From: Oscillospiraceae bacterium
Lineage (GTDB): Bacteria > Bacillota > Clostridia > Oscillospirales > Ruminococcaceae
NCBI GenBank assembly: GCA_017541275.1
Contig: JAFXZM010000065.1
Coordinates: forward strand, 1-61,723
DNA length: 61,723 nt
Reading direction: 5' to 3'
This document shows positions 32,241 to 49,114 of the stretch, piece after piece; position 1 is the stretch's first letter, and every line of letters starts with the position of its first letter. Under the pieces are notes generated by a model, which made no database searches, had not been told where the DNA came from, and worked only from the letters and a program-made list of their open reading frames with translations. Both the position numbers and the translations under genes were made by a program.

Positions 32241-33857
32241 ATGGATTACGAAGAACAGGAGGTTCGCCTTTCCGGTGAAGCTCCGAAAAAACGCCCGCAG
32301 CGTCCCGCTGAGGGCCGCAGACCCGCCTCCGCACAGCAGCGCTCCGGCAGCAGCTCACAGCGATCTCAGCAGGCGCCGCACAGACGCCCCGCAGCCGACG
32401 GGCAGCAGAAGCGTCCGGCTGCACCTTCCGCCGCGGCTGCACGCCCCGCAGCAAAAAAACGTCCCGCACCTGCCGGAAGCGGCTCCCGCTTCGCAGATGA
32501 TTCTCCAAAGCGTCAGGCTCCGCGTACTGCGGCCGGCACGCGCTCTGCCTCCGGTCAGCGCAGACCTGCGCAGGGTGCGCATACCGCAGCCCGTTCGGCA
32601 GCGGCCGGCTCACATTCCCGCACCGCCGAAGCCCGTACAGCAGCCGCCGGTACCCGCAAGGTATCCAAATGGCGCATCGGCATGACGATCTATATTATCC
32701 TGTTTATCATCTTCCTTCTCCTCGCAATGCGCTGGATCTGGGTGCTTTGCAGCGAATTTGAGGATTCGCAGCCGAAATACACGATTGACGCTTATGTCAC
32801 CGAGCTGAACGGAAAGGATGCCGCCGCGAAGGAGGCCTATTTCCAGGATATGCTCAAGCAGAAGATCGACGTTCTGCCGCTGTCTCAGTACGAAACCAGC
32901 GATTCGATCTATAATACGCTTGATATCGAGGAATCCGCGGAGACGAAGTTCTCCTGGATCAAGTCCAAGCGCTACACCGAGGAAGCCCCGGTCTACTATA
33001 TCCGCAGCGGTGAAGCCGTTATTGCTGAGGTTGAGCTGGCTCAGAACGGCACAACAAAAAAGCATGACTTCAATCTCTGGACAATCGGCAAGATCAATTC
33101 CATGCTGGAGGTCGCCTCCGAACCGGAATATGACTTCACTGCGACATTCCCTGCCGGCGCTTCTATCAGCATCAACGGCATTGCAGTCGATGCTGCCTCG
33201 ATTCAGCCCGCCGCTGCTTCGATCAAGCTCGACGAGGCTTCCCTGAAATATTCCGCCCAGCCCGATGCACAGACCTGCACGATCAGCGGCCTCTATGCGG
33301 CGCCGGTCATCACGGTCACAGATGCAAACGGCACCCCGCTCTCTCCCACAGAGGAGCCCAAGGAGGGCGCCAAGCATCAGGAGCTTGTCTTTGAGCCCGC
33401 CGATCAGGCTGAGATTGATCCCGATATCGTTTCCCGCACTGAGGCGCTGACCGCTGCCTATATCAACTATATGATAAACGAAGGCTATGCGACAAAGGGC
33501 GATGCGGCTACATGGGAAAACCTCGGCGTACTTGACCGCTATATGATCAACGGCTCGACGCTCTATCAAAACATGCATCAGTCCGTGGGCGAGCTCAACT
33601 GGAACAACGCCTACACCTCCCGCAAGGATTCGCCGATCGAGATCTCGCATCTCAAGATGTACAGCGATACCTGCTGCACCGTCGAGGCGAAATATGCGTA
33701 TGAGCTGACCAAAACACGTGACGGCGTCACCAACGTCAACAACTATGCCGGCACGATCCGCTGGACACTCGTCAAGGCTGACGGTGTGTGGTATACGTGC
33801 GGGAACGTGCTCGTTCAGAGTTCAGAGGGCGGCACACACAGCAATGTCGGTGTCTGA
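32241..33857 (+). CDS. Membrane protein with Pro/Arg/Ala-rich cytoplasmic tail and unknown exterior
   Basis: 538 residues. The first 140 residues are basic and low in complexity (repeats of RPA, RRP, SQR), probably disordered. A membrane helix follows at about 148-170 (MTIYIILFIIFLLLAMRWIW). The exterior (about 175-538) contains a beta-rich part (EYDFTATFPAGASISINGI) and a C-terminal part (YMINEGYATKGDAATWENLG, ending WTLVKADGVWYTCGNVLVQS) that looks like an NTF2-like fold. I do not recognise a family. Its basic tail resembles that of the pseudokinase protein at 43331. Same operon as the NAGPA protein, suggesting a cell-envelope job. Confidence 0.75.
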   Translation: MDYEEQEVRLSGEAPKKRPQRPAEGRRPASAQQRSGSSSQRSQQAPHRRPAADGQQKRPAAPSAAAARPAAKKRPAPAGSGSRFADDSPKRQAPRTAAGTRSASGQRRPAQGAHTAARSAAAGSHSRTAEARTAAAGTRKVSKWRIGMTIYIILFIIFLLLAMRWIWVLCSEFEDSQPKYTIDAYVTELNGKDAAAKEAYFQDMLKQKIDVLPLSQYETSDSIYNTLDIEESAETKFSWIKSKRYTEEAPVYYIRSGEAVIAEVELAQNGTTKKHDFNLWTIGKINSMLEVASEPEYDFTATFPAGASISINGIAVDAASIQPAAASIKLDEASLKYSAQPDAQTCTISGLYAAPVITVTDANGTPLSPTEEPKEGAKHQELVFEPADQAEIDPDIVSRTEALTAAYINYMINEGYATKGDAATWENLGVLDRYMINGSTLYQNMHQSVGELNWNNAYTSRKDSPIEISHLKMYSDTCCTVEAKYAYELTKTRDGVTNVNNYAGTIRWTLVKADGVWYTCGNVLVQSSEGGTHSNVGV

Positions 33858-42253: not shown

Positions 42254-42302
42254 CTGAAAAAACCGGCAGCAGATGCTCCGGTCAGAAAGGATGCGTAAAA
42301 TT

Positions 42303-43100
42303 ATGGCAAACAAGGAAAATACCGGCGAATTCTCCATGGACAGCTACGTCAATCAAAGGCTGTCAGAGGATGTCGAACCGAACAATCCGTTCGAGGTTCC
42401 GATGAAGGACGGGGGCGGACACAAGGGCAAGCACAGGCTGAAGGGCAAGGTCAATATCAAAAGCAAGAAGTTTCTGATTATTCTTGCGGTCATTGCAGTG
42501 CTGGTGCTGTTTCTGATTCTGTTTATCTGGATCAGAAAGCGGCAGAATGACGGCGCACGGTATGCGCGGCTGCTGGCGAAAAATATCGGCACCCCGATCA
42601 GCTCGGCGCGCAAGGATGCCGGCCTCGACCTGAAAACCGAATCAGACTATACTACACTGAATCAGCTCTATATTTCGTATCAGGCGATTGCAGAAAGCCG
42701 CAAGGACTGCACAATTCAGGGCGTGCATCTGCCGGAGTGGGCGATCTTCTGCAATACGGATGCGAATGAACTGACGAATGTCACATATTATAATTACGAG
42801 CTGCTGGAGGACAGCATCTTCGGCACCGAGCGGAAATCCTATCTCGATCCGCAGCTCATCCCGGAGCGCGCATCCATTTCGGAGGTCGAAAAGAAGCTCG
42901 ACCTTGAGCCGTACCGGATTCAGTATCTTCAGGACCGGACACAGCTCCGCGAATACCGCTACTGCTATGATGACAAGGAAACCGGCGATGTCGTGGCCTA
43001 TGCGATCACGGCAAAGTGGGACAGCAGCGGCGCTCTCTACGAGATCAAGGATATCCGCCGGAATTACATCGGTACACTGCTTTCGAGCCCGGAGGCCTGA
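42303..43100 (+). CDS. Single-pass membrane protein of unknown function
   Basis: 265 residues from ATG 42303 (GAAAGGA 11 bases upstream). A polar, Lys-rich N-terminus (FEVPMKDGGGHKGKHRLKGK) is followed by a membrane helix at about 55-80 (FLIILAVIAVLVLFLILFIW), then an exterior domain of about 180 residues with Tyr- and Asp-rich strands (YCYDDKETGDVVAYAITAKW). I know no family. The gene ends the peptidase operon and precedes the pseudokinase gene, whose own basic region and helix make a similar topology. Confidence 0.7.
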   Translation: MANKENTGEFSMDSYVNQRLSEDVEPNNPFEVPMKDGGGHKGKHRLKGKVNIKSKKFLIILAVIAVLVLFLILFIWIRKRQNDGARYARLLAKNIGTPISSARKDAGLDLKTESDYTTLNQLYISYQAIAESRKDCTIQGVHLPEWAIFCNTDANELTNVTYYNYELLEDSIFGTERKSYLDPQLIPERASISEVEKKLDLEPYRIQYLQDRTQLREYRYCYDDKETGDVVAYAITAKWDSSGALYEIKDIRRNYIGTLLSSPEA

Positions 43101-43217: not shown

Positions 43218-43246
43218 TTGACAGAAGCCGCGATTCCTGTTAAAAT
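43218..43246 (+). promoter_or_regulatory. Promoter of the pseudokinase gene
   Basis: TTGACA, 17 bases, TAAAAT. Just upstream an AAATTGCT/AGCAATTT inverted repeat lies around 43172-43197. Confidence 0.7.
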
Positions 43247-43330
43247 GTAAGATGAATCTGAAATAACAGGCGTGATTGCCTGCGGAGGGGAAAAACATAC
43301 GGCCCCCGCAGGACGGAAGGAGAAGAAGCA

Positions 43331-45748
43331 ATGAGTGATCTGAAGCTCTGCTACGGCTGTATGGAGCCGCTTGACGGCGACTCTGTCTGCCCGCACTGCG
43401 GATATGACCGGAATACAACCTCTCTGGCGAATTACCTGAAGCCGGGGACAATGCTGCGGGAGCGGTTTCTGGTCGGAAAGGCGCTGGATTCCAACGGCGA
43501 GGGCGTAACCTACATCGGCTACGATACCGCCGTGGGCTGCAAAATACTGATCCGCGAGTATATGCCTGAGCAGCTTTGCAGCCGCGTCCCGAACAGCACC
43601 GAGATCAACGTGAACTATGAGCATCTGGCACAGTATAAGGCGCTGATGGCTGAATATACGGAGCTCAACAAGGCTCTGGCGCGCCTGCGGAATCTGAGCC
43701 ACCTGAATCCCGCGCTCGATCTGTTTACCGAAAACAACACAACCTATGCGGTCTATGAGTATCTTGAGGGGCAAACCCTGCTCGACTATCTGAAGGACAA
43801 TGCCGGCGAGCTGAGCTGGAATATCGTGCGCCGCATTTTCCCGCCGCTGTTCACAACGCTCAGCCTGCTGCATAATGCAGGCGTGCTGCACCGCGGCCTG
43901 AGCCCCGAAACTATATTTGTTACCGATAAGGGCGAGCTGAAGCTGCGCGGCTTCTGCATCTCGGCCGTCCGCACAAACGATACCGAGCTCGATGCGGAGC
44001 TGTTCGACGGCTATGCTGCTCCGGAGCAGTATTTCGCAGACCGCCAGCAGGGAACCTGGACAGATGTCTACGGCATCTGTGCCGTGCTGTACCGCATTCT
44101 GACCGGCTCCCGTGCAACAGACGCGATCTCCCGGCAGGATTATGACAATCTGGTGCCGCCGATTGAGCTGAATTCGCATATGCCGGAGAATGTCTCCAAG
44201 GGCATTATGCAGGGCCTTGCACTGGAGGGCAGCGAGCGTGTCCGCACAATCACCGATCTCGTGACGCTGCTGTTCGATGAGAGCACGAATGAGGAAAGCA
44301 GCAGCACCTCCGAAAAAAGCGGCACGACAGCCGTTTTCCCCGCTCAGAATGATATCAAGCAAGTCGGAGCCGCAGCCGGCGCAGCAGCAAGACGTCCCGC
44401 AGGCGCTGCACATCCCGCACGGCCGGCCAATGCACCCAATACGGCACATCAGCGGCCGCTCCGGAACGGCGCGGCACCCGCAGCACACCGTCCCGGCGCA
44501 AGACCGGCTCCCGGTTCACGCCCCGGCGGCGCACCTCGTCCCGGAATGCCCCGCGGTAACAGCACAGCCGGAGGACGTACACCCGCAGGGCGGAACGGTC
44601 AGCGGCCTGCACAGCAGCGCGGCGGTGCGCGTCCCGCACCCGGTACCAGAAATGCAGCGATGCGCAGCGGCGCTTCCGTACAGCGCAGCCGGAACGGCGG
44701 TATGCCGCAGAACGGTGCTGTCCGGCGGCGGCCGTCCGCAGCAGCCGTAAACAGCCGGAACCGCAAAATGCAGGAGGCAACCGTCTTTGAGAAGATCCGT
44801 GCACCCCTGCTGATCGCGTTCCTGTTTATCGCGATCGTCACGGTCGTGATCTTCGCGTTTGTCAAGCTGCTGGGCAGCACTGCCGGCGGCAATTCGCTCG
44901 CAAACCGCGACAGCAGCAGCGAGCAGGATAATGTCATCCCCGCACAGACCGATCTGACTGACACTGCGCATGTCGAATACGGCGTGATGCCGCAGCTCGT
45001 CGGCAGAAACTATACGCTGAAGCATGACGAAATGGCAAGCTCCGGCTGGCTGTATCTCGAACCGGAATACGTGTTCAGCGATTCGATCATCAAGGATACA
45101 ATCATGGAGCAGGAGCTGACTGCCGGAACAGAATTCGTCATCGGCAGCACCATGAAGGTCACGGTCAGCCTCGGCCCGTCGCTCATCACGATCCCGCCCT
45201 ACAAGGGCATGCGCCTGAATGCGTATCTGAATCAGCTCAAGGAAATGGGTCTGGTTGAGGCGATCGACGGCGACGGCGGCTCCCCTGCCGGTCAAACACA
45301 GAAGAACGGCGGCAAACAGACAACTACGACCGAGGCAGATGTGCCGGCAAATGAGCAGGGCAAAAAGCAGGTCGTCATGTACCGGGCAAAGGTTGACTAC
45401 AATTACTCGAACGGCTATGTCTGTGCGGTTGACCCCGCCGCAGGCAAGGTAATCGACGCAATGGAGGATTACCGGATCATTGTGTACTATGCATATAATC
45501 CGGTCTATACGACGATAAACAACGGCACGACCGGTACGACGAACTCGACGACATCAACCTCCGGAAAGGGCTCCAAGACAACCGGAACAACAACCGCTAC
45601 CACTGCAAAGCCGACGGAAACACAGCCGCCGCAAACACAGGCCCCGCAGACACAGGCTCCGCAGACACAGGCCCCGCAGACGCAGGCCCCGGTTGAGCCG
45701 CCTCCCACACCGCCTGAAACACCGGCAGCAACACCTGATCCCACATAA
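43331..45748 (+). CDS. Zinc-ribbon, pseudokinase, TM, PASTA-like protein
   Basis: 805 residues. Residues 7-23 form a zinc ribbon (CYGCM...CPHC). A Ser/Thr-kinase fold spans about 40-315, but every catalytic motif is altered: the VAIK lysine is Arg75 (ILIREYMP), HRD is HRG (188-189, HRGLSPETI, with the magnesium Asn replaced by Thr194), and DFG reads GFC (KLRGFCIS, 204-211). The structural YAAPEQY and DVYGICAVLYRILTG parts remain, so it is a folded pseudokinase. A basic Pro/Ala/Arg-rich linker (about 355-480), a membrane helix (490-512) and two PASTA-like repeats outside (about 545-690) follow, with a Thr-rich tail and four QTQAP repeats. It may sense cell-wall fragments and act as an allosteric partner of real kinases. 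Confidence 0.88.
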   Translation: MSDLKLCYGCMEPLDGDSVCPHCGYDRNTTSLANYLKPGTMLRERFLVGKALDSNGEGVTYIGYDTAVGCKILIREYMPEQLCSRVPNSTEINVNYEHLAQYKALMAEYTELNKALARLRNLSHLNPALDLFTENNTTYAVYEYLEGQTLLDYLKDNAGELSWNIVRRIFPPLFTTLSLLHNAGVLHRGLSPETIFVTDKGELKLRGFCISAVRTNDTELDAELFDGYAAPEQYFADRQQGTWTDVYGICAVLYRILTGSRATDAISRQDYDNLVPPIELNSHMPENVSKGIMQGLALEGSERVRTITDLVTLLFDESTNEESSSTSEKSGTTAVFPAQNDIKQVGAAAGAAARRPAGAAHPARPANAPNTAHQRPLRNGAAPAAHRPGARPAPGSRPGGAPRPGMPRGNSTAGGRTPAGRNGQRPAQQRGGARPAPGTRNAAMRSGASVQRSRNGGMPQNGAVRRRPSAAAVNSRNRKMQEATVFEKIRAPLLIAFLFIAIVTVVIFAFVKLLGSTAGGNSLANRDSSSEQDNVIPAQTDLTDTAHVEYGVMPQLVGRNYTLKHDEMASSGWLYLEPEYVFSDSIIKDTIMEQELTAGTEFVIGSTMKVTVSLGPSLITIPPYKGMRLNAYLNQLKEMGLVEAIDGDGGSPAGQTQKNGGKQTTTTEADVPANEQGKKQVVMYRAKVDYNYSNGYVCAVDPAAGKVIDAMEDYRIIVYYAYNPVYTTINNGTTGTTNSTTSTSGKGSKTTGTTTATTAKPTETQPPQTQAPQTQAPQTQAPQTQAPVEPPPTPPETPAATPDPT

Positions 45749-46118: not shown

Positions 46119-46171
46119 GAATGCAGGGAAAACAGATACTGCACCGAAACTAATGATTGGGGGAATCAACA

Positions 46172-49114
46172 ATGAAAATGCTTCTCAGGAAGCTCGCCGC
46201 TGCCGCGGCATCTCTGGCGCTCTGTTCTGCGGCGCTCCCTGCCGTACAGCAGCAGGCCTCCGCCGCAAATACCTACTGGAAATTTGACTTTGGCGGCGGC
46301 GGGACGGCCTCAGGCTACACCGGCGTGTCCGCAGCCGACGGCTACAACGCCTCCCGCGGCTACGGCTTCTCGTCCGGCACCAATGTCACGAATGTCGGCG
46401 CATCGGGCAGCGGCGCACTCAGTGATGCCGTTCAGTTCAAAAATGCGACGGCAACGGGCAATTATACCTTCTGCGCCGATGTCCCGAACGGCCTGTATCA
46501 GGTGTCGGTCTGGCTCGGCAACACCAACCGCACCAGCGTCGGCATCGAAAAAATGCTGCAAATCGTCAACATGACCGGCAACAATGCCTACCACACGCTT
46601 CAGGTCCCGGTCACGGACGGTCAGCTCAATATCTGCGCCTGCGCGGGCAAGGACGGCTATCCGTTCTCAATCTCCGCGCTGGAGATCAAGCAGATCTCCA
46701 CACAGACCCACACAAACCCGACAATCTGGGTCTGCGGCGACTCGACCGTCTGCAACTATTACCCGCTGAACAGCTCCGCGCAGGCTGGCTGGGCGCAGAT
46801 GCTCCCGGAATTCATTGACACGAATCAGTGGCAGGTCATGAATATGGCCGCTTCGGGACAGTATGCAAGAGGCTTCTTAGAGGCCGGTCAGTTCGATGTC
46901 ATCGAAAAGAACGGCCAGCCCGGCGATATCTATGTCATCTCCATCGGCATCAATGACACCAATTCCAAAAACAATACGACCGGAGAGCAGTATGAAGCAC
47001 TGATCACCGATATGGCAGAGCGTGCCATGAAAAAAGGCATGCGCGTGATCCTCGTCAAGCAGCAGGGCAGAAACGGCGACTGCCAGCGCAACCCGCTGCT
47101 GGAGGGCAGATGGTACGGCAAACAGCTCGACAGGGTCGGTGCGGCACTCAATATCGAGGTCGTTGACCTGTTCAATCTCTGGCAGGATTACTGCCTGACA
47201 AAAACCGCGGACGAAGTTTCGGCCATGTATCTCGACGACGGACTGCACCCGAACCGCGCCGGTGCGACCGTTCTGGCGCAGTTCATGGCGGACGCGATCA
47301 ACAGCGGCAGCACGCCCGAGGTCAAAGGCGAAACCTTTGCTGAGGGTACGACCGTGATGTTCCGCAATGCGGAATCCGGCATGTACCTGACCGTCGAGGG
47401 CGGCACTGCAGCAGCGGGAACCAATGTCTCCCAGAGCAGCGACGGGATTCCCTCTGAGAAAAATACATGGAAGCTCTCCGCAGCAGCGGAGGAGGGAACC
47501 TACCACATCTTCTCCATGCTGGACGGCGGCAGCACCTATCTGCTCGACATCGCCGACGGCAAGACCGACAACGGCACGAATGTCGGCATCTGGACGGATA
47601 CCAGCCACAATGCACAGGTGTTCAAGATCGTCAAGGACGGCGATTATTATCATATCGCGACCGCTGTCTCCGGCTACAAGAGCTATGTCGGCATCACCGG
47701 CGGCTCGCATGACGAAAACGCAAACGCGATCGAATGGACGAACGACCGCACCGATAACCAGAAGTGGCAGATGATCCCCGCCGCAGTCGGCAAAGACGGC
47801 CCGCTTGCACAGGGCGACCTGACCGGCGACGGAAAGATCAATGCCGCAGACCTCACGCTGATGAAGCGCGTGCTGAATGACGCGGATGCCCCCTACAACA
47901 AGCGGCAGGCGGCTGACCTCAACGGCGACATGAAGGCCGATGCAGATGACCTCACGGTCATGGTGAACTTCCTGACCGGCGAAACCGATGCCTTTGCAGA
48001 CCCGAAGTATGCCGCGACCGAGCAGATCATCGCGGACGGCTGGCGTGAGGAAACGAATGCGGGCTATCTCTACAAGGATTACCTCAATCTCGACAACACC
48101 GACAAGAGCGCCGTGACCTTTGCGGTCAATGCCGCACTGAAGGGCAACTACCTCTGCACATTCCATATCGCAAACGGCTCGGCCAATGACCGCGAAATGA
48201 TGATCTCGGTCAGCAGCTCGACCGAAATCTGGAAGCAGAGCTTCCTCACGACCGGCGCATGGACGACATGGGAGGAGCGCGGCATCGTGCTTCCGCTCAT
48301 TGCCGGCATCAACTACATCACCCTGAAATCCAACACCGCCGAGGGCGGCCCGAATATCGACTATCTGGATCTCTGCCTGACCGATGAACCGATCGCACAG
48401 TCCTACGATCCCTCTCAGGAGCCCCAGGTGATCGACACCGACAAGCCGGTCATCTTCATCGCTTCGGATTCCACCGCTCAGAGCTACCGCGCAGACAAAG
48501 CCCCGCAGCAGGGCTGGGGCTATTATCTCCAGAACTACTTTACAGACAACGTGACTGTCTCGAACCACGCAATCGCAGGCCGCAGCTCCAAGAGCTTCTA
48601 TGACAACGGCAGACTGGACACGATCCTCGGTCAGATCAAGGCGGGCGACTATCTGCTGATCGACTTCGGCATCAACGACGGCGACTCTTCCAAATCCGAG
48701 CGCTATGCGCCGGTCTGCGGCAATGTGGATAACCCGACGAACGGCTCCTTTGAGTATTACATGACCTTCTATATCAAGGGTGCGCTGGATAAGGGCGCCA
48801 CACCGATTCTGATGAGCCCGACGCTTTCGATCCGCAATCAGACGCAGCCGTTCAAAGTCGGCTACCGGAACATTGACTCCGCATGTCAGGCGCTTGCGAG
48901 AAAGTACAACATTCCGTACTTTGATCTCGGCGCAGCGATGACAAACGACTTTAACAAGCGCGATTTCAATACCGTCAAGGGGTATTATCTGGGCGGTGCG
49001 ACCGGCGGCACGGACTATACGCACTTTACCGAAACCGGCGCACAGGTTGTCGCTCAGATCATCTGCCAAGGCATCAAGAACCTGAATATCGACCTTTCCA
49101 AGTATGTCAAATAA
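46172..49114 (+). CDS. Double rhamnogalacturonan-acetylesterase-like (CE12) protein with internal dockerin
   Basis: 980 residues from ATG 46172, GGGGGAA upstream. Signal peptide to about 35. Residues 36-175: a beta-sandwich often seen before CE12 domains (YWKFDFGGGGTASGYTGVSA). SGNH domain 1 at 180-380: IWVCGDSTVCNY with Ser at about 190, ISIGINDTN, DDGLHPNRAGA. Ricin-type CBM13-like region about 390-545 (FRNAESGMYLTVEGG, QKWQMIPA). Dockerin about 547-608 (GDLTGDGKINAADLTLMKRV and DLNGDMKADADDLTVMVNFL). CBM35-like domain 620-745. SGNH domain 2 about 758-980: IFIASDSTAQSY, LIDFGINDGD, YTHFTETGAQ. Likely deacetylates pectin (rhamnogalacturonan) in the cellulosome. Two catalytic units on one chain could act on neighbouring sites. 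Confidence 0.9.
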   Translation: MKMLLRKLAAAAASLALCSAALPAVQQQASAANTYWKFDFGGGGTASGYTGVSAADGYNASRGYGFSSGTNVTNVGASGSGALSDAVQFKNATATGNYTFCADVPNGLYQVSVWLGNTNRTSVGIEKMLQIVNMTGNNAYHTLQVPVTDGQLNICACAGKDGYPFSISALEIKQISTQTHTNPTIWVCGDSTVCNYYPLNSSAQAGWAQMLPEFIDTNQWQVMNMAASGQYARGFLEAGQFDVIEKNGQPGDIYVISIGINDTNSKNNTTGEQYEALITDMAERAMKKGMRVILVKQQGRNGDCQRNPLLEGRWYGKQLDRVGAALNIEVVDLFNLWQDYCLTKTADEVSAMYLDDGLHPNRAGATVLAQFMADAINSGSTPEVKGETFAEGTTVMFRNAESGMYLTVEGGTAAAGTNVSQSSDGIPSEKNTWKLSAAAEEGTYHIFSMLDGGSTYLLDIADGKTDNGTNVGIWTDTSHNAQVFKIVKDGDYYHIATAVSGYKSYVGITGGSHDENANAIEWTNDRTDNQKWQMIPAAVGKDGPLAQGDLTGDGKINAADLTLMKRVLNDADAPYNKRQAADLNGDMKADADDLTVMVNFLTGETDAFADPKYAATEQIIADGWREETNAGYLYKDYLNLDNTDKSAVTFAVNAALKGNYLCTFHIANGSANDREMMISVSSSTEIWKQSFLTTGAWTTWEERGIVLPLIAGINYITLKSNTAEGGPNIDYLDLCLTDEPIAQSYDPSQEPQVIDTDKPVIFIASDSTAQSYRADKAPQQGWGYYLQNYFTDNVTVSNHAIAGRSSKSFYDNGRLDTILGQIKAGDYLLIDFGINDGDSSKSERYAPVCGNVDNPTNGSFEYYMTFYIKGALDKGATPILMSPTLSIRNQTQPFKVGYRNIDSACQALARKYNIPYFDLGAAMTNDFNKRDFNTVKGYYLGGATGGTDYTHFTETGAQVVAQIICQGIKNLNIDLSKYVK

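Follow-up and report, generated by a model that had tools for sequence, protein, structure and literature searches.

The stretch analyzed here (the window) is a contig of 61,723 nucleotides from an Oscillospiraceae bacterium (JAFXZM010000065.1, assembly GCA_017541275.1), and its forward-strand gene at positions 43331-45748 encodes an 805-residue protein with a zinc-ribbon pattern, a protein kinase fold, a linker, one transmembrane (TM) helix, PASTA-type domains and a tail. We read this protein, with a probability of roughly 60%, as a PASTA receptor pseudokinase of ancient origin that has lost catalysis and whose cytoplasmic fold would dock onto or control an envelope partner, possibly the active PASTA kinase PrkC. 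The parts of this reading differ in strength. Judged from the sequence, it is highly probable that the protein is dead and has been kept for a non-catalytic role, and the fold likely does not bind ATP productively; PrkC as the direct partner is a tentative suggestion that we put below even odds.

An earlier note on this DNA had claimed that the catalytic motifs are replaced while the scaffold is kept, and each replacement is found where it had been placed. In strand β3, ILIREYMP stands in place of VAIK, with Arg75 at the Lys position (K75R) and Leu73 at what we take to be the position of the VAIK alanine. The catalytic loop reads HRGLSPETI from H187 (D189G, N194T), and LKLRGFCIS lies at the DFG site (G207, F208, C209), so both ends of DFG are replaced (D207G, G209C). 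The αC Glu is Leu112 (E112L). The same note had the first glycine of the GxGxxG loop as missing; the damage to the loop is confirmed, but the count is not, as two glycines are gone (G53D, G55N), and the loop tip is Glu57. YAAPEQY and WTDVYGI are retained, as are the scaffold residues H187, E232, D245 and R303, and the alignment columns put Tyr142 at the presumed gatekeeper position. The accessible part of PMC12599244 defines a pseudokinase by the absence of one or more of the β3 Lys, HRD Asp and DFG Asp; all three are absent here. The Pfam Pkinase profile (PF00069) matches residues 118-270 with 59.5 bits (cut-off 31.7), and PASTA (PF03793) matches residues 552-613, C-terminal of the TM helix, with 29.8 bits (cut-off 23.2); the zinc ribbon is known from its Cys pattern, the DZR profile scoring 12.4 bits, under its cut-off of 27.3. 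By sequence, this is a true pseudokinase with a PASTA-type exterior, as first proposed, and plausibly a partner-binding signal transducer.

The losses were then counted across relatives, for which 263 candidate open reading frames (ORFs) were reduced to 215 representatives at 90% identity and assigned by best score to the pseudokinase family (144), to related active kinases (27, of which 22 have all four zinc Cys) and to PrkC (43); one locus, L005, was set aside by hand. The HRD Asp is present in 1 of the 144 orthologues (Gly in 108, Ala in 33), compared with 27/27 active relatives and 43/43 PrkC proteins, and residue 189 is Gly, Ala or Ser in 140 of the 142 fully aligned rows. The αC Glu occurs in 0/144 orthologues, 122 of which have Leu, and in 70/70 active relatives and PrkC proteins. 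The β3 Lys column holds Arg in 87, Lys in 48 and another residue in 7 (n = 142), and the DFG columns retain Asp in 26/144 and Gly in 4/144, with a middle residue that is Phe in 135/144 and Tyr in 1/144. The VAIK Ala is kept in 2/144 and replaced in 140 of the 142 rows with a letter there. An alignment of this kind, counting the joint loss of Lys, HRD Asp and DFG Asp, had been proposed as a check on the protein: all three are lost together in 78/142 orthologues and at least two in 131/142. Joint loss of all motifs is true of the 805-residue protein and not of every relative; the constant losses are those of the HRD Asp and the αC Glu. The architecture is kept as well, with all four zinc-ribbon Cys in 142/144 rows (gaps in the remaining 2), a hydrophobic 19-residue TM-like window in 138/138 full-length orthologues, and both Pkinase and PASTA matches (E up to 0.01) in 42/42 members of the full-length alignment A1.

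Several positions carry residues that are characteristic of the family. N55 is found in 121/144 orthologues (1/27 active relatives), E57 in 132/144 (0/27), W163 in 133/144 (1/27), R214 in 134/144 (2/27) and E223 in 110/144 (0/27), and H187 is invariant among the orthologues. The tip of the glycine loop is acidic in 138/142 orthologues, compared with Phe or Leu in 27/27 related active kinases and Met in 42/43 PrkC proteins. The earlier suggestion that the fold binds ATP is disfavored by these sequences because the VAIK Ala, DFG Asp and αC Glu are mostly or wholly gone, at the counts given above, and the loop tip is acidic. We dropped the gatekeeper (F 54, Y 41 and M 8 across the 144) as evidence against ATP, the replacements being mostly F/Y; Phe gatekeepers occur in active kinases, and the residue alone therefore says little. 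Being by itself compatible with ATP, it would also suit a noncanonical enzyme with a nucleotide-using activity other than phosphorylation, comparable to SelO or SidJ, as would a basic β3 residue (K/R) retained in 135/142 despite the disappearance of its αC Glu partner in all, the invariant H187, and a pocket with the conserved unusual residues N55, E57 and R214. With the VAIK Ala replaced in 140/142, the glycine loop broken and the DFG Asp lost in 118/144, we nevertheless regard such an activity as quite unlikely.

The dead form is widespread. The kinase part finds matches in 193 of 197 genomes of the source family at E up to 1e-10, a count that may include other kinases, and the full-length profile (A1, 42 members) matches 189/197 at E up to 1e-45, including 145/146 good genomes; active paralogues pass this threshold too, such as the intact kinase of the same genome (1.2e-87) and another intact kinase (3.4e-107, model positions 3-385). 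At least 150 of the 197 genomes have a full-length match, since the 150 matches listed come from 150 different genomes and each runs at least as far as position 494 of the 586-position model, into the PASTA part. Of the 189 genomes that match, 151 have one profile match each. In the sister family f24, 53/60 genomes match (51 full-length, one in two contig pieces, one cut by a contig end), as does the 1/1 genome of family f23. Among the named carriers are Ruminococcus flavefaciens ATCC 19208, MA2007 and Y1, and Massilioclostridium coli. Outside the source family, the best 19 loci in a 299-genome phylum sample (own genome included) all have intact HRD and DFG, and the best hits examined in the order sample outside f1, f23 and f24 are intact kinases. 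Since most of the gut-bacterial relatives sampled retain this dead version, it is probably a working part of signaling rather than debris.

The protein belongs to a zinc-ribbon branch of kinases, having four Cys before the kinase fold and a place beside such kinases in a tree built by a quick method, without bootstrap, and without the catalytic and signature columns (glycine loop, 75, 112, 187-194, 207-209 and 214). In this tree, 44 sampled pseudokinases form one clade (SH-aLRT 100) in a group otherwise composed of intact kinases and L005. We infer that catalysis disappeared a single time, ahead of the diversification of the clade, and that selection has maintained the fold ever since. Finding a homologue with intact motifs in the same species had been named as something that would speak against a pseudokinase. 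One exists (L002/L259, with VAIK, HRD and DFG and no PASTA match), but it is a paralogue that falls outside the pseudokinase clade. In L007, identity is seen at 220/283 aligned positions of the pseudokinase domain, 37/67 of PASTA 1 and 19/70 of the linker; in comparisons with the nearest relatives, no other large part of the protein is as well conserved as the pseudokinase domain. The higher conservation of the dead domain relative to its sensor speaks for a function in the cytoplasm.

Several related loci were seen alongside. L005, in the same genome but outside the window (C50, L259:3357-6065), is a second zinc-ribbon pseudokinase with six PASTA stretches; it has VIGGFSVFD for HRDxxxxN and IYEYSP after β3, and it adjoins the intact zinc-ribbon kinase at L259:6102-8171. 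The quick tree sets L005 apart on a long branch (2.04). We do not claim an independent catalytic loss for it, as a single clade including L005 is not rejected (p-AU 0.282). At L261:1705-11532 and L260:2225-7463 lie arrays of intact zinc-ribbon kinases, some of which combine 6-7 PASTA stretches with other extracellular repeats; they are a possible ancestor pool of the dead form. Three f24 genomes that yielded no full-length pseudokinase each encode a short protein (L294:2590-3213, L295:2698-3402 and L296:2829-3365) in which PASTA-like repeats accompany a TM-like stretch and no kinase domain is present; these proteins may represent just the outer half or have no relation to it. Two genomes that do carry the pseudokinase (L298, L299) likewise encode PASTA-only proteins.

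PrkC (NF033483) scores over its cut-off in 40/40 carrier genomes tested. A Pkinase-profile search of 11 genomes gave an intact PrkC and the pseudokinase as the sole two matches in 8, and four of these eight genomes are, at 0.7-0.9 Mb, the smallest tested. A partnership of the two would fit this pattern, and yet a number of results weigh against our reading. Co-loss of the two genes was not found: PrkC is kept in 5/5 genomes that are >90% complete and in which the pseudokinase was not found (G179, G663, G671, G676 and G686). Since PrkC is also, to our knowledge, near-universal in Bacillota, its co-occurrence with the pseudokinase says little and proves no partnership. No conserved operon partner emerged from 41 neighborhoods. 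In the four smallest genomes, the pseudokinase has lost the HRD Asp and the αC Glu but keeps the β3 Lys in 4/4 and the DFG Asp in 3/4, and because these two residues also survive in 48/142 and 26/144 orthologues overall, the losses beyond those of the HRD Asp and αC Glu are graded. The sole representative with an Asp at the HRD position (HTD) is L198, a short ORF of 395 residues from G125, which is without the β3 Lys, the HRD Arg and DFG. Finally, the pseudokinase domain changes faster than the PrkC kinase domain, with 77.7 and 73.9% identity to two same-genus genomes compared with 86.2 and 91.3% for PrkC, and 43-44% compared with 67% at greater distance. This faster change is what a decaying kinase gene on its way to loss would display, but retention over many genera, 0.7 Mb genomes included, and a fixed new signature contradict decay, which we consider very improbable.

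In a second explanation, the pseudokinase is a scaffold that works independently of PrkC, itself recruiting a cell-division or peptidoglycan-synthesis protein, with PrkC a bystander in nearly all relatives. PrkC evidently does not need the pseudokinase, since it is retained in all five well-assembled genomes where the latter was not found, and the pseudokinase gene shares no conserved operon with PrkC and has promoter- and terminator-like signals of its own. Set against this are the eight genomes, four reduced ones among them, with no other Pkinase-profile match than the pair, and a gene neighborhood that yielded no candidate client. We judge this scaffold a plausible explanation, though one that falls short of an even chance.

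Under the reading we prefer, that of a dead receptor with a docking fold, the PASTA domains outside the cell would read the state of the peptidoglycan, and the kinase fold inside, without using ATP, would serve for docking or allosteric control, in which the activation segment (R214, T215, E223) and W163 may take part. As the partner, PrkC is the first candidate, whether by side-by-side binding or by phosphorylation of the pseudokinase; alternatively, the partner may be a direct envelope or cell-division client. Phosphorylation might also be the whole of the role, the protein then being a decoy substrate, phosphorylated by PrkC at the membrane, whose activation-segment Thr residues would be read by FHA or other phospho-binding proteins. 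T215 is conserved in 114/144 orthologues, and a precedent exists in the degraded kinase CD2148 of C. difficile, which is phosphorylated in vitro when PrkC is present (accessible part of PMC9674922), but T218 is less well conserved (T 75, S 31 of 144), and we hold the decoy to be unlikely. A bolder version of the preferred reading, which may hold but which we would bet against, is that the dead PASTA kinase serves as a dedicated receptor subunit of the live one across this gut-bacterial clade, reading the cell wall. If true, this would be a bacterial receptor-pseudokinase pair following a logic like that of animal receptor pseudokinases such as HER3.

Roles are known for few bacterial pseudokinases. 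The one described here is widespread across a large family of gut and rumen bacteria, has a recognizable PASTA sensor build and stands beside a well-understood active kinase, which makes the role of a bacterial pseudokinase directly testable. Annotation as "PASTA-domain Ser/Thr kinase" on the strength of the domains alone would attach that name to proteins that are probably unable to phosphorylate. A literature search, which covered part of the literature, recognized no description of a zinc-ribbon PASTA pseudokinase.

Among known systems, the PASTA Ser/Thr kinases PrkC, PknB and StkP (NF033483) have the same build of a kinase fold inside, one TM helix and PASTA domains outside. The 805-residue protein differs in its zinc-ribbon pattern, its missing catalytic residues and its NF033483 score of 108.9 bits against a cut-off of 450, and it coexists with a genuine PrkC. 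The zinc-ribbon Ser/Thr kinases of the source family (L002, L260, L261; some with 6-7 PASTA stretches) are among its nearest relatives in the tree and share the zinc ribbon, the E-Y/F-x-P after β3 and the kinase fold; unlike the pseudokinase, the 27 related active kinases have the VAIK Lys, αC Glu, HRD Asp and DFG Asp in 27/27 and the DFG Gly in 25 (2 gaps). The best solved relative by sequence is the N-terminal kinase domain of PpkA (5hnv; 2.5e-26, or 1.4e-40 with the family profile), which has the IKEYMP segment in common but keeps Lys, HRD and DFG, and the match spans the kinase domain only.

We considered pseudokinases of other kinds as well. As described in the accessible part of PMC9674922, CD2148 is a membrane-anchored degraded Hanks kinase beside PrkC in which the catalytic Asp and Asn are both Ser; in vitro it becomes phosphorylated only when PrkC is present, with activation-loop T156 among the sites, and in its authors' view it may be a pseudokinase. 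It offers an earlier example of a degraded second kinase that works with PrkC, although it has no PASTA domains. EssB/YukC of type VIIb secretion is a Bacillota membrane pseudokinase with all three motifs degraded and a scaffold role (PMC12599244, accessible part); it resembles our protein in being a membrane pseudokinase and differs in that the latter has a PASTA ectodomain. A type VII secretion link was rejected, with EssC over its cut-off in 2/20 carrier genomes but not in our own (G000) and no YukC match for the 805-residue protein among Pfam families listed to E 1. The MviN (ActPs3) pseudokinases are, we assume, defined by fusion to a MurJ/MviN flippase, and membership was rejected as no such Pfam match is found. 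Membership among anti-phage kinases was set aside, since the PADLOC hits (PD-T4-6, 98.8 bits) are generic kinase-domain matches over the kinase fold. DYD, ActPs1-3, GLW, CP1 and DLHK are conserved bacterial pseudokinase families according to the accessible part of PMC12599244, which does not describe a zinc ribbon with PASTA for any of them and in which "zinc" and "Ruminococc" are absent and "PASTA" appears in the reference list only. Of these, the DYD pseudokinases have a β3 Arg, no αC Glu and DYD for DFG (same source); the first two features are shared with the 805-residue protein, but DYD membership was rejected given its GFC and a middle Tyr in 1/144 orthologues.

Two further proposals of the earlier note are not supported. 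The basic linker, suggested as a path for the signal, has a net charge above +5 in 43/138 full-length orthologues, with a median of +2, and some linkers are acidic. A partner shared with the protein at 32241 had been suggested from a similar basic tail; the Ala/Arg/Pro-rich stretches of the two align with a score of 99 (shuffled mean 78.3, sd 10.5), and because 18/500 shuffles reach that score, the likeness is mostly one of composition.

Table 1. Features of the pseudokinase gene and its flanks (window coordinates)
Feature	Positions	Strand	Basis
Promoter-like TTGACA-17-TAAAAT, TG before second hexamer	43218..43246	+	11/12 matches; consensus match only
Ribosome-binding-site-like GGAAGGAG	43315..43322	+	8 bases 5' of ATG; consensus match only
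Gene, zinc-ribbon / pseudokinase / TM / PASTA protein	43331..45748	+	ORF, Pfam, orthologues
Zinc-ribbon pattern C7 C10 C20 C23	43349..43399	+	Cys pattern
Pseudokinase domain, residues 39-318	43445..44284	+	PF00069; PpkA 5hnv match
Degenerate glycine loop DSNGEG, residues 53-58, acidic tip E57	43487..43504	+	alignment columns
Arg75 at β3 Lys position	43553..43555	+	alignment columns
Leu112 at αC Glu position	43664..43666	+	alignment columns
HRGLSPET for HRDxxxxN (G189, T194)	43889..43912	+	motif reading
GFC for DFG (207-209)	43949..43957	+	motif reading
Family-specific R214-T215, activation segment	43970..43975	+	alignment columns
Basic low-complexity linker, residues 319-485	44285..44785	+	not a family trait
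Single transmembrane helix, about residues 493-511	44807..44863	+	hydrophobic stretch in protein sequence
PASTA domain 1 (552-613)	44984..45169	+	PF03793, 29.8 bits
Putative second PASTA-like domain and genus-specific insert (614-712)	45170..45466	+	alignment A1; no own Pfam stretch
Thr/Pro/Gln-rich extracellular tail	45467..45745	+	sequence
Terminator-like stem, 12 pairs, directly 3' of stop codon	45753..45783	+	consensus match only

The gene looks intact and separately expressed (Table 1). Because promoter-like and terminator-like signals directly flank it and it has a good ribosome-binding site, it is probably transcribed alone, as a monocistronic unit, going by these consensus signals. The 41 neighborhoods compared were 40 fetched ones and the window, with the target gene assigned in 40 and not in L065. 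No operon partner is conserved, the most frequent neighbor cluster occurring in 8/41, and a function read from operon or neighborhood was rejected, as the clusters examined look housekeeping or metabolic (YebC-like, acyl-CoA-ligase-like, methionine-gamma-lyase-like; identities by reading, with Met_gamma_lyase alone tested by profile). Just upstream, at 42273-43100, lies a gene for an uncharacterized membrane protein whose cluster is present in 5/41 neighborhoods, the window included, and whose homologue in L045 has an N-terminal zinc-ribbon match. On the other side, 46157-49114 encodes a large, apparently secreted protein that matches GDSL/SGNH hydrolase, ricin-type lectin and dockerin families and is probably a cellulosome-type enzyme.

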